Source: Qipengyuania sp.
Lineage (GTDB): Bacteria > Pseudomonadota > Alphaproteobacteria > Sphingomonadales > Sphingomonadaceae
NCBI GenBank assembly: GCA_019745075.1
Contig: JAIETR010000007.1
Location: 1-64,000, forward strand
DNA length: 64,000 nt
Reading direction: 5' to 3'
Part shown: positions 54,277 through 57,747 of the stretch, one piece after another
Layout of the letters: each line of letters begins with the position of its first letter
How positions within the stretch are numbered: position 1 is the stretch's first letter
Made by a program: the position numbers and the translations under genes
The notes under the pieces: model-generated
Told to the model about the DNA's origin: nothing
The model's database searches: none
The model's input: the letters and a program-made list of their open reading frames with translations, nothing else

Positions 54277-57200
54277 TCACGGTCTGTGCTCGGCGCTGCG
54301 CTGCCGCGCCGCTCGCCGGGCCACGCGGCGATTGCTGGCGACGCCGGCGGTGGCGAGCGGGTTCACCAGCGCTTCGTAGAGCCCGAAGAGATGCTCCACC
54401 CGGTCGCGGTCGCTGGCGAAGGGCGCGCGCCGGTAGAGCCGGTCGACCGCCTCGTCGAGCGCGCGGTGCGCCTTGCGCAGATTGCTGGGCATGGTGTCGG
54501 GATCGTAGAGATCGGCCAGGCTCGAGGTCGGATGCGCGGCGCGCGCGTCGAGCACCCCCTGCGCCAACGCCTCGACCCTGGCGCGCTGCGCGGGCGTGGC
54601 CTCAGGCCAGGGGAAGGTGTTGTAGACGACACCAACAGAATACATATAATCGGACTTCATTCGGCCCGTGATGGCCCGCATCCAAGCCATGTGCATGGTG
54701 CTTGTGAGGATGCCGAATTCCCAGAAGCTTGCGTTGGAAAGAAGACGAAGCTTGTCGCTCGGAACCGATGGAGGTTCCAGCCAACCGATAGGTACGAAAT
54801 CGCGACGCTCCGAGCTTACCTGCGGAATTACGAGAAACGCCGCTTTTGGAATGACCGTCACGTGAAATTGCGTTGGGGCGCTTGCTAGGCTTGCCGCCGA
54901 ACTTCCTTCTTTCGCCCGCGTTCCGTCTGGCTTGCCCTTGGGGCCAATCTCGCTCTTCCGAAATTTCCGAACAAGCTCAAGCCGGGACGAGACCTCGGAC
55001 GAGGCGCGAACCGTAGCGGGTGGTGCGTCCTGGAGCGCAAGAATCCAGCGACGGCCATCATTGATGTATTCGCTTGCACCGAGGTAAGGCCGAATGAATG
55101 GGTCCATTGCTGGTTCTTTCTCCAACATGGATGCGCGTTCTTCGGCGCTGAAGGTTAGATAGCCACCGTCCAGCGGCTTGCTTCCAGTGAGGAGCCTGCT
55201 GGCGCCATTGATGGGCCTCCTTTCTTCCCGCACCACCAAATGCCGATCCGCGCCCTTGGCATCGAACAAATAGGCCGTCAGGGCGCCATGCCGGCTCTCG
55301 ACCGGGTCGCGCTTGATGTCGGGATAGCTGAACAGCCGCTTCTCCGCCGGCTCGAAGTCGCGGTGCGTCAGGCCGATTATCACCACATGGACATGCGCCT
55401 TGCCGCGCGCCTCGCTGAACCAGTTGAAGGTGCGGTGCGCGAAGGCGATCTCCAGCCCGTGGCGGTCGAACAGCAGCGGCCAGAGCTGCGCCACCTGCTC
55501 GCCCTGGACGATTGAATTGGTGGCGACGAAGGCGATGCGGATGCGGCGGTTGGCGGTTCCAAAGCCCCTCCCGTTGTTCCTCCGGAACAGCTTCGCTTCC
55601 AGGGGAGGGGTTGGGGTGGGGGATGTCAGGGGAAGCGGAGTCGGCACAGGCCCCACCCCCGTCCCCTCCCCTGGAAGCGAAGCTGTTCCGGAGGAACAAC
55701 GGGAGGGGCGACCGGCGCCATTCAGATACTGCCCCGCCTTGAGGAACCATGCCGCGACATAGTCGAGCGTGCCGCCCGAACCACCCAGCCCGGCGATCCG
55801 CCGTACCTGCGCGCGCTGCGCCGCAGTCTGGTATTTCGCTCCCACGAACGGCGGGTTGCCCATCACGAAGCTGCACCGTTCGGCGGGCAGCACATCGTTC
55901 CAGTCCACCTCCAGCGCGTCGCCGTGGTGGATCGTGGCGCCGCCGGTCAGCGGGATGCGCGCATAGTTGAGCCGGAACGCTTCGTTGATCGCATTGTTGG
56001 CGATGTGGTCCGCCATCCACAGCGCGACCTCGGCGATCATCGCCGGGAACTCCTCGTATTCGATGCCGTGGAACTGGTCGACCGTCACCCGGCTCAGCAG
56101 CGCGGCATCGATGGTCTGGTCGCGGTAGAGCTCCTTCAGGCAATCGAGCTCGAGCTTGCGGATTTCGCGATAGGCGATGACGAGGAAATTGCCGCAGCCG
56201 CAGGCCGGATCGAGGAAGCGCATCCGCGCCAGCCGCGCCTGGAACTCCAGCAGCAGCTTGTCCCTGGCGGTCTTGCGCGACTTCAGAGCTTCCAACTCGG
56301 CGCGCAGATCGTCGAGGAACAGCGGGCCGATCGCCTTGAGGATGTTCTCCTCGCTGGTGTAGTGCGCGCCCCTGGCGCGCCGCTCCTTCGCGTCCATCAC
56401 GCTCTGGAACAGGCTGCCGAAAATCGCCGGGCTCACCGCCGACCAGTCGTGCCGGCAGGCGTCGAGCAGATCCTCGCGCATTTTCGCGTTGAAGACCGGC
56501 GTGCGCAGGTTTTCCGCGAACAGCCGCCCGTTGACGTAGGGGAACTGCTTCAGCTCGCCCGAGAGTTGCGCCTGCCGCTTGTCCTCGGGCGTGTCGAGCA
56601 CCTCGAACAGCTGATTGATCGCGCTCCCGACATTGCTCCCGTCCGGGTTGGTGTCGTGCTCGACGAGCTGGAGGAAGATGTCCTTGGGCTGGAAGATGCC
56701 GGTGTCGTCGGCGAACAGGCAGAACAGCAGCCGGACCAGATAACGCTCGAGATCGTGGCCGGTGTAGCCGCCTTCCTCCAGCGCATCGTGGATGCGGCCC
56801 ATCAGCCCGGCGGCCTCGATGGTGACCGCTTCCTGCCGCTCGAAGCTGACGCGGCGGCCGAGCATGAAGTCGAACGCCTGGACGTGCTTGTGCAGATCGG
56901 CGAGCTCGAAACGCAGCGGCTCGCCCGCGCTGTCGCGGTCGCGCAGCACCCAGTTCCGGAAATCGCAGGTGAGGATGAAGCGCGGCTGCTCGGTGGCGTG
57001 GATACCCGCCAGATAATCGAGCGCCTGTGTCTCCGCCTTCCTGAGGTCGAGCGTGGCGCTCTTCTGTTCGATCAGCAGGGTGCGCGGCCAGAACAGGTCG
57101 ATGAAGCCCTGCCTGTTGTCGAGCAGTTTGACCCGCCGTTCGTAGTCCGCGACCTGGCGGCGCTTGATCCCGAAGATTTCGAAGAAGTCGTTGTAGAAGC

Positions 57201-57291
57201 TCTGGGTCTCGCCCTTCTCGTAGCGAGCGGTCCGCCACTCCTCGCTGAAGGCCTTGGCCCGGCGCGCGATTTCATCCCAACCCAGCCGCAT
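54277..57291 (-). CDS. MmeI-like type IIG restriction enzyme and DNA methyltransferase carrying a palindromic insertion
   Basis: A 1004-residue combined enzyme. The N-terminal nuclease motif is Asp65 ... Glu75-x-Lys77 (FIDLFW ... LLIEQKS), with the same spacing as MmeI. A helical spacer follows, then the adenine-N6 methyltransferase with motif I FLDPACGCGNFL (~360) and motif IV NPPF (~480), and a C-terminal target-recognition region (~560-900). Residues ~528-576 are translated from a 144-base palindrome (55565-55708) and look unlike the family. Start ATG 57291 (a GTG two codons upstream is possible). No other defence genes adjoin it; methylation and cutting by one chain would make a complete system. 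Whether the insertion leaves it active is unknown. Confidence 0.87.
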   Translation of the reverse strand: MRLGWDEIARRAKAFSEEWRTARYEKGETQSFYNDFFEIFGIKRRQVADYERRVKLLDNRQGFIDLFWPRTLLIEQKSATLDLRKAETQALDYLAGIHATEQPRFILTCDFRNWVLRDRDSAGEPLRFELADLHKHVQAFDFMLGRRVSFERQEAVTIEAAGLMGRIHDALEEGGYTGHDLERYLVRLLFCLFADDTGIFQPKDIFLQLVEHDTNPDGSNVGSAINQLFEVLDTPEDKRQAQLSGELKQFPYVNGRLFAENLRTPVFNAKMREDLLDACRHDWSAVSPAIFGSLFQSVMDAKERRARGAHYTSEENILKAIGPLFLDDLRAELEALKSRKTARDKLLLEFQARLARMRFLDPACGCGNFLVIAYREIRKLELDCLKELYRDQTIDAALLSRVTVDQFHGIEYEEFPAMIAEVALWMADHIANNAINEAFRLNYARIPLTGGATIHHGDALEVDWNDVLPAERCSFVMGNPPFVGAKYQTAAQRAQVRRIAGLGGSGGTLDYVAAWFLKAGQYLNGAGRPSRCSSGTASLPGEGTGVGPVPTPLPLTSPTPTPPLEAKLFRRNNGRGFGTANRRIRIAFVATNSIVQGEQVAQLWPLLFDRHGLEIAFAHRTFNWFSEARGKAHVHVVIIGLTHRDFEPAEKRLFSYPDIKRDPVESRHGALTAYLFDAKGADRHLVVREERRPINGASRLLTGSKPLDGGYLTFSAEERASMLEKEPAMDPFIRPYLGASEYINDGRRWILALQDAPPATVRASSEVSSRLELVRKFRKSEIGPKGKPDGTRAKEGSSAASLASAPTQFHVTVIPKAAFLVIPQVSSERRDFVPIGWLEPPSVPSDKLRLLSNASFWEFGILTSTMHMAWMRAITGRMKSDYMYSVGVVYNTFPWPEATPAQRARVEALAQGVLDARAAHPTSSLADLYDPDTMPSNLRKAHRALDEAVDRLYRRAPFASDRDRVEHLFGLYEALVNPLATAGVASNRRVARRAARQRSAEHRP
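55565..55708. repeat. Long palindromic element inserted in frame in the MmeI-like gene
   Basis: Two 46-base arms (55565-55610 and 55663-55708) are perfect inverted copies around a 52-base loop; the loop ends (TTGGGGTGGGG and its near mirror) extend the pairing. The element is 144 bases, exactly 48 codons, and is read in frame through the gene on the minus strand. Its outer ends (CCCCTCCC...AGGGGAGGGG) match the short hairpin at 30240-30261. No transposase is present; it resembles a dispersed REP or palindromic-element insertion. Confidence 0.9.
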
Positions 57292-57360
57292 TCGCACCGA
57301 CCCTCCGGCGGCTTAAGTGACGGGCGGGGAGCGGGTTGTCCAGATGGGGCTAGTGGCGCC

Positions 57361-57747
57361 CTACCAGATCCGCTCCACCCCGAACGCGTCGAACAGCGTC
57401 TCGTTCGAAACGATCGGCACCCGCTCGATCCTCGCCTGGGCGATCAGCAGGCGATCGAACGGGTCCTTGTGCGGGATATCGAGCGAACCGGCGAGCGAGG
57501 CATGATCCATCGAGACGGGTAGCGCGGACCACTCGAGTTCGGCCATCATCCGCTGGTGATGCCGCGCAAATGGAGCTGCTTGCCTGAGCTTGCCCAGGCG
57601 GTGCTTCAGCGTGATCTCGAAGATCGAGACCGCGCTAATCAGAATTTCGGTGCTGTCGGAGGCGATCGCCGACCTTGCCGCGCGCGAGAGATGCGCGTCG
57701 TCCAGCACGCTCCACAGCAGCGCGTGCGTATCCAGCAGCAGCCTCAA
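57361..57747 (-). CDS. PIN-domain toxin (VapC-like) of a Phd-type module
   Basis: A 128-residue PIN-domain protein, expected to be an RNase toxin. Conserved acidic sites lie in LLLDTHALLWS (residues ~3-13), SIFEITLKHRLGKL (~43-56) and HKDPFDRLLIAQA (~94-106). The start overlaps the antitoxin stop by four bases. This is the type usually paired with Phd/YefM antitoxins. Confidence 0.88.
   Translation of the reverse strand: MRLLLDTHALLWSVLDDAHLSRAARSAIASDSTEILISAVSIFEITLKHRLGKLRQAAPFARHHQRMMAELEWSALPVSMDHASLAGSLDIPHKDPFDRLLIAQARIERVPIVSNETLFDAFGVERIW

Follow-up and report, generated by a model that had tools for sequence, protein, structure and literature searches.

A palindromic element in frame within an MmeI-like gene of Qipengyuania sp. 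and the association of such palindromes with DUF559 genes

Palindromic repeats lying in frame within protein genes are best known from Rickettsia, in which the RPE, of about 150 bp, occur in many copies, in frame in unrelated metabolic genes (PMC10969869). A 2013 survey reported REPs within genes, among them DNA-repair genes and, in E. litoralis and S. alaskensis, those for tRNA synthetases and truB, as well as different REPs at about one recB site in two Xanthomonas; REPs of the CGTC type are without a known dedicated transposase (PMC3733652). Both E. litoralis and S. alaskensis are sphingomonads. DUF559 proteins are PD-(D/E)XK/Vsr-like endonucleases, described in a source that covers Caulobacter VsrA and mismatch repair, without palindromes (PMC12907096).

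The element described here lies in a 64,000-nt stretch of DNA from Qipengyuania sp. (contig JAIETR010000007.1, positions 1 to 64,000), which is referred to as the window. Its repeat family satisfies the criterion for RPE-like elements, being palindromic and in frame in several unrelated protein genes, and the TruB gene is struck in both cases, by RPE-1 in R. conorii (PMC3733652) and at locus L014 here. The family differs from RPE in lineage (Sphingomonadales), in its G+C-rich sequence, in its hairpin architecture, and in its link to DUF559; the likeness is drawn from the palindromic, in-frame arrangement alone. The initial annotation, made by a model from the sequence alone, had proposed an in-frame palindromic insertion like those of Rickettsia in another lineage. 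This is supported, with ValS and other core enzymes of a further alphaproteobacterial lineage now found to carry such palindromes.

The GTAG and CGTC intragenic REPs are 20 to 40 bp long with a tetranucleotide tag beside the stem, whereas the elements here are double hairpins of about 105 to 146 nt. No GTAG was seen by eye beside the stems of family copies in the window's genome (G000), and the GTAG REP criterion is not met. Many halves have a TGTC at their inner side, but the make-up of their stems is unlike that described for CGTC REPs (8 to 9 bp, AT first pairs). Like the REPIN/RAYT system (PMC3116915), the family has hairpins in inverted pairs, numerous non-autonomous copies, and a related coding form with hairpins on its flanks. 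However, the flanked gene here encodes a DUF559 nuclease and not an HUH tyrosine transposase, and the REPIN/RAYT criterion, a RAYT gene flanked by the same repeat in the genome, is not met in G000. In-frame palindromic elements were already known as RPE and intragenic REPs; the literature searched contained no report of DUF559 with palindromes, which is weak evidence since most subscription papers lay outside it, and nothing on point for MmeI with palindromic insertions or intragenic palindromes in Sphingomonas.

The palindrome and its host enzyme

Using repeat finding and folding, a palindromic element of 146 nt was identified at window positions 55564-55709. Repeat finding gave arms of 59 nt each (55564-55622 and 55651-55709) that are 93% complementary around a 28-nt centre, and the predicted fold joins 55564-55610 to 55663-55709 in 47 outermost pairs without a break. 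The DNA fold has an energy of -80.5 kcal/mol (z -14.6), with none of 200 shuffles equally stable; the palindrome is real and far beyond chance. An assembly artefact is ruled out as its source because the family occupies 31 further places in the genome and relatives carry different inserts at the same loop. No match to the element was found in a plasmid collection searched in distant mode. The features defined are as follows.

54277..57297, minus strand: MmeI-like Type IIL restriction-modification gene, 1006 aa (Pfam; 5hr4 sequence and fold matches)
55549..55731, minus strand: expanded MTase-domain loop, 183 nt versus 15-18 nt in most homologues (loop measurement, model)
55564..55709, no strand: palindromic element (repeat finding, fold, family copies in own genome)
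55564..55610, plus strand: outer perfect arm, 47 nt, extended form of hairpin CCCCTCCC..GGGAGGGG (repeats, fold)
55663..55709, minus strand: outer perfect arm, 47 nt, inverted copy (repeats, fold)
55600..55673, no strand: core common to most family copies in the genome, element query positions 37-110 (genome search)

The host gene encodes all five Pfam domains of the family (MmeI_N, MmeI_hel, MmeI_Mtase, MmeI_TRD, and MmeI_C), giving an N-terminal nuclease, a helical spacer, a gamma-type MTase, a TRD, and C-terminal domains. As the five are in one chain and the motifs are intact, membership in the MmeI-like Type IIL enzymes is met. The protein matches the MmeI structure 5hr4 both by sequence (E 3.7e-240) and in a fold alignment (E 9.2e-72), across which identity is 42%; the two share the same five Pfam domains and differ in the 55 extra residues that the window enzyme has in an MTase-domain loop. 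The reading frame is open across the palindrome (ORF 54277-57297, minus strand). Directly upstream, also on the minus strand (window 57361-57747), is a gene for a PIN-domain protein (PF01850, E 1e-10), which we take to be VapC-like.

In the predicted model, the loop sits between helix 515-525 and strand 587-593. It measures 183 nt in the window gene and 15 or 18 nt (5-6 residues) in 63 of 80 homologues, a net gain of 165 nt, or 55 residues, by loop comparison. The MTase profile PF20473 is interrupted by the insert, with the break at 188 of 259, and residues 526|582 of the query align with 526|527 of 5hr4; the insert therefore interrupts the methyltransferase domain itself. Of the claims in the initial annotation, the presence of a real palindrome in frame inside the MmeI-like gene held (repeats, fold, and open ORF). 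Its perfect 46-base arms and 144-bp extent (55565-55708) are corrected to 47 and 146 nt and its 48 extra residues to 55 net, while a position between the methyltransferase core and the target-recognition part is rejected, as the split profile and the 5hr4 alignment both place the insert within the MTase domain.

An AlphaFold2 model (mean pLDDT 82.6) gave values below 50, mostly 30-35, for residues 530-581, and the insert is predicted by this model to be a disordered loop. In a catalytic-residue alignment of 27 rows, from 30 initially chosen, the nuclease residues D67, E77, and K79, the SAM-binding residues D363, P364, and C366-N370, and the NPPF motif at 481-484 were invariant. The insert most likely leaves the enzyme working, an inference made without activity or specificity data. 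Abolished activity, changed specificity, and a tolerated surface loop had all been put forward from the sequence; with the same lack of data, the tolerated loop is best supported, because pLDDT is about 30-35 at residues 531-580, the catalytic motifs are kept, and ValS, found only once in the genome, carries such an insert.

In-frame family copies and recurrence at enzyme loops

Searching the window's genome (3.02 Mb; assembly 93.8% complete, 82 contigs; placed in Sphingomonadales by the closest named relatives of its MmeI) identified the family at 32 places at E <= 5.8e-5, the window copy included. In its usual form the family is a double hairpin, GCCCCTCCCCTTCAGGGGAGGGG-TTGGGGTGGGG-nnTGTC...GACA-mirror, in which two inverted half-elements (hairpin CCCCTCCC..GGGAGGGG, then GGGGTGGGG..TGTC) flank a short spacer. 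The window copy departs from this form in that its outer hairpin is longer, a variant also present one-sidedly or partially at C7, C10, C13, and C39.

The 32 places were searched for frames open across the element with at least 70 codons on each side, and 22 open frames were found to span a family copy, two of these on the window's own copy. Ten genes carry a copy in frame, namely those for MmeI, ValS, LeuS, PheT, TruB, CarA, MetH, PutA, RNase R, and EgtB, supported by Pfam or NCBIfam matches on both sides of the element or by one spanning match. EgtB, a DinB/FGE protein in Pfam, has a single NCBIfam EgtB match from residues 57 to 485 across the element. Support was one-sided only for an rRNA-methyltransferase-like gene (L003) and for GcvPB (L012), the latter with a match that begins at model position 38, just past the element. 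Open frames at L008 and L024 had no Pfam match and so were not counted as genic, and L029 was not counted as its HslU model starts at residue 238, past the element.

In alignments to solved homologues, the element is skipped in ValS (501|550 versus 473|477), CarA (207|235 versus 183|182), TruB (L014; 182|216 versus 161|168), PheT (472|513 versus 434|440), and RNase R (388|441 versus 303|323); in LeuS it lies within a poorly aligned stretch adjoining the editing domain. Translations of the element use few phases, e.g., SPLPFRGGDGGG..DIPHPNPSPEGEGL and PSPSGEGTGVGPV. A second ValS was not found in G000, with one match at E <= 1e-20 in an assembly of the stated completeness. The element recurs as an in-frame insert, and proteins appear to tolerate it.

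Seventeen genomes of the genus, the window's own included, have a resolved ValS loop. It is 15 nt long in 13 of them and 135-150 nt, in frame and of two element types, in G000, G005, G014, and G016; the loop was unresolved at L298 and L310, and G013 yielded no locus. The ValS loop repeats the pattern of MmeI, with presence, absence, and two element types within the genus. Visual inspection of the empty ValS and MmeI sites revealed no recognizable target-site duplication. Open frames holding ValS range from about 906 to 1245 aa in the genus, a spread that may stem from additional in-frame inserts in other loops.

The MmeI loop was measured in all 80 homologues of a first set and in 75 of 79 further loci, being unmeasurable in L218, L231, L233, and L277. 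The 75 include four repeats of loci already in hand and the window itself, and as the last 20 loci were chosen partly for odd matches, no frequency was drawn from them. A loop length of 32 nt at L107 is an extrapolation error; its frame is open. The residues of the window's insert are absent in all other homologues measured (80 + 74), in which long loops hold other sequences. The initial annotation would have been refuted by homologues from distant genera carrying the same residues or by a genome with no other copies. As no measured homologue carries them and the genome search gave 31 further places, with at least nine other genes having an in-frame copy, neither refuting condition is met.

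Nineteen long loops were folded, of which 11 fold strongly (z <= -5): those of the window gene, L046, L047, L048, L061, L064, L066, L078, L119 (arms), L268, and L270. The insert is divisible by three and the frame kept in 10 of the 11, the exception being L268 (G361:C40), in which a 158-nt palindrome at the loop breaks the frame. The inserts are of several different sequences, among them CCCCTCCC-type palindromes in sphingomonads; L078 (Gallionellaceae) has a CTGAGCTTGTCGAAG-type palindrome, L064 and L066 have other types, and in L119 (Gallionella) a complete DUF559 domain lies between palindromic arms. The folds of L060, L080, and L089 are weak (z -2.6, -1.5, and -2.8, 30 shuffles each) and L077, L099, and L101 have no fold z-score; none of these was counted as a strong palindrome. 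Five of the seven strong inverted repeats across the 80 homologue genes are in the MmeI loop. Relatives of the L046 insert were identified in G364, G237, G252, G812, and G813 and none in G361, and the loop repeat of L078 has no further copy in its own genome bin.

On a tree of 100 MmeI-homologue rows, the inserted state needs at least 10 changes, so that one enzyme loop records this many state changes with clean empty sites. Inserted L047 pairs with empty-loop L049 and L048 with empty-loop L282. The tree is a quick one, with loop columns removed, SH-aLRT support only, and 23 open forks; L060 and L080 were scored as inserted and L077, L089, L099, and L101 were not. Recurrence at a fixed loop is shown. 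It is most simply read as active elements inserting repeatedly, with the loop tolerance of each protein as the filter; the movement itself is inferred.

Other repeats were also observed in these genes. Positions 358-560 of the L078 gene hold a second in-frame palindrome, in the N-terminal domain. At the MmeI loop, poly-G tracts of 8 and 10 are present in L271 and L272 (both out of frame), a heptamer repeat in L065 (out of frame), and a CA repeat in L086; these simple-sequence repeats resemble phase-variation tracts of MmeI-family enzymes.

DUF559 genes and palindromic arms

The DUF559 domain in the MmeI loop of L119 led us to test for an association of DUF559 (PF04480) with palindromes; neither this link nor the repeated strikes on the loop by different elements had been foreseen in the initial annotation. 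Bracketing was defined as an inverted repeat bridging the DUF559 gene with a score of at least 20. In G000, DUF559 is represented by a fragment and by three near-complete genes, of which one has an internal stop. All three genes lie between inverted hairpin arms by eye, and two of them pass the bracketing score (L126, 48.5; L127, 26.5; L128, 16.0).

A total of 45 compact DUF559 loci were drawn from the window's genome, 41 relatives, and 150 genomes of the phylum, leaving out L141 and L142 (contig edges), L187 (split gene), and L129 (fragment). A bracketing inverted repeat was found in 27 of the 45. Among the controls, it was found in one of 86 windows from the same loci, in none of 225 shuffles, and in none of 13 divergent DUF559 paralogues, which are present at about one per genome of the genus. 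In a second sample, with the threshold fixed beforehand and 20 places hand-picked before their flanks were seen from search matches without a locus, bracketing was found in 12 of 20 against 0 of 39 control windows, bringing the control windows over both samples to 1 in 125. A first null, which compared the upstream side of one locus with the downstream side of another, was dropped as its maximum score of 161.5 was ascribed to related loci; under its 99% cut, 1 of 44 strong DUF559 loci passed. The shuffles, same-locus windows, and second sample are the replacement nulls. Below the threshold were 18 of 45 and 8 of 20 loci, several of which have a whole palindrome or a single arm beside the gene.

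An arm plan of CCCTCTCCC-n-GGGAGAGGG, then TTGGGGTGAGGG, recurs in the window's genus and as far away as remote groups within the phylum, with several loci of genus g30 having a CATCTCCCCC..GGGGGAGAT arm type instead. The arms differ in detail between lineages, and both arms of one bracketed locus match each other. Own-genus arms at L137-L140 and L143 match the half-element of the window family in the gene-facing orientation with scores of 14.5-24; the 13 divergent paralogues scored 5.5-9.5 and the three G000 loci 8-12. Some loci, e.g., L176, L161, and L126, match better in the other orientation. Under the proposed MITE reading, terminal inverted repeats would be shared with a coding parent. 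DUF559 loci of the same genus have the arm architecture in common with the family, but the search of G000 gave no such parent: none of the DUF559 genes identified there has window-subfamily arms, the near-complete copies having other arms. As that assembly is incomplete and in many contigs, a DUF559 parent may be missing from it, and the same caveat applies to the single-copy ValS.

Among the 150 genomes, the motif CCCTCTCCCN{2,8}GGGAGAGGG was present at least twice in 21 of the 31 that have DUF559 and in 7 of the 119 that lack it (p 1.3e-12); the corresponding counts for the window's class alone were 13 of 22 and 0 of 16. A reversed control pattern matched in 1 of the 150. These tables were tallied by hand, with any PF04480 match at E <= 1e-10 taken as DUF559 presence (weak-only G167 included), and the statistic ignores genome G+C content and relatedness. 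Exceptions occur in both directions, as some of the seven genomes with the motif and no DUF559 carry many copies (107 in G180 and 57 in G094), and 10 of the 31 with DUF559 have fewer than two. The association of DUF559 with palindromes, by bracketing and by co-occurrence in genomes, is shown; mobilization by DUF559 is inferred.

Proposed explanation and rivals

The evidence tips, by a modest margin, toward a model in which the palindromes are non-autonomous forms of DUF559-carrying mobile elements, tolerated in protein loops. Under this model, the palindrome would be a non-autonomous, MITE/REPIN-like mobile element whose copies are spread by an active process. In-frame, stop-free copies in protein loops would be tolerated and read as Gly/Pro/Ser/Arg-rich disordered loops, and the remaining copies would survive between genes. 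In the autonomous form, inverted arms of this kind would enclose a compact gene for a DUF559 (Vsr-fold) nuclease, and the short palindromes would be internally deleted derivatives of that form. DUF559 would probably take the role that RAYT transposases have for REPINs, cutting the arms or the target. Movement of the element, DUF559 as the mover, its mechanism, and the activity of the window's MmeI are all inferred, and transposition in action was not observed in these data. Some intragenic palindromes were previously without a known mobilizer, for which DUF559 is now a testable candidate nuclease. If DUF559 does move palindromes, this would assign a role to a widespread domain of unknown function and would explain where many stray peptides rich in Pro, Gly, and Arg in bacterial proteins come from.

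The main rival, which we consider unlikely, is that DUF559 is a passenger that inserts into, or is carried by, pre-existing palindromes moved by something else. In its favor, DUF559 is found in the palindrome centre, some insertion sequences are known to target REPs (PMC1525189), and the motif occurs without a DUF559 match in 7 of 119 genomes. Against it, the arms vary between lineages yet agree within a bracketed locus, and the motif is rare where DUF559 is missing. As only PF01797 and PF04480 were examined as partners, another enzyme is not excluded.

It is also improbable that the element is an ordinary REPIN moved by a RAYT, an HUH tyrosine transposase. The element is an inverted hairpin pair like a REPIN, and G000 has PF01797 genes at four places, two of them RAYT-like. 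However, the RAYT-like L044 (G000:C3:44263) and L045 (G000:C13:17915) are flanked by their own repeat families, of the GGGACAGTCCC and GGTTCCGGGGACAG types, no copy of the palindrome family lies beside any of the four PF01797 places, and on the contigs of these two genes the closest family copies lie at distances of about 7 and 10 kb. RAYT was rejected as the mobilizer on the grounds that these genes carry other repeats.

Inactivation of MmeI by the insert, with the gene decaying, is very unlikely. The palindrome at the same loop in L268 breaks the frame, and the poly-G and heptamer repeats put L271, L272, and L065 out of frame. Against decay, the window gene has a full-length open frame with its nuclease, SAM-binding, and NPPF residues invariant across the 27 rows, and the same family is present in LeuS, PheT, TruB, and also ValS, of which the genome yielded no second copy. 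Equally hard to sustain is selection of the expanded loop for a function, for example in switching or in altering a property of the enzyme: one loop is occupied recurrently by different elements, with at least 10 changes, and by repeats like those of phase variation, but lengths divisible by three in 10 of 11 strongly folding inserts allow no frame switching, and the same elements in loops of unrelated housekeeping enzymes are explained by tolerance.

Returning to DUF559 elements as the proposed source of the palindromes, a complete DUF559 domain was also found in frame within four host genes: two for MmeI homologues (L119 and L080), one for an HsdM methyltransferase (L192), and one for a YkuD protein (L199). 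As these cases came to light by chance or from long open frames, they establish occurrence and not frequency; four long frames around DUF559 (L188, L189, L191, and L193) were judged spurious by eye and not used, and a further set of 20 loci enters no count. A bolder reading, which we are as ready to doubt as to accept, is that compact DUF559 nucleases with lineage-specific bracketing hairpins would form a class of selfish elements outside RAYT/IS200. The CCCTCTCCC..GGGAGAGGG-type palindromes of Pseudomonadota would be their minimal copies, and the complete element would also sit in frame in host enzymes (MmeI twice, HsdM, and YkuD), the host genes reading through and gaining an extra nuclease domain. 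In L080 the order is TRD (672-875), DUF559 (918-1023), and MmeI_C (1062-1151), placing DUF559 between the TRD and the C-terminal domain. At L195, DUF559 is fused upstream of trpA.
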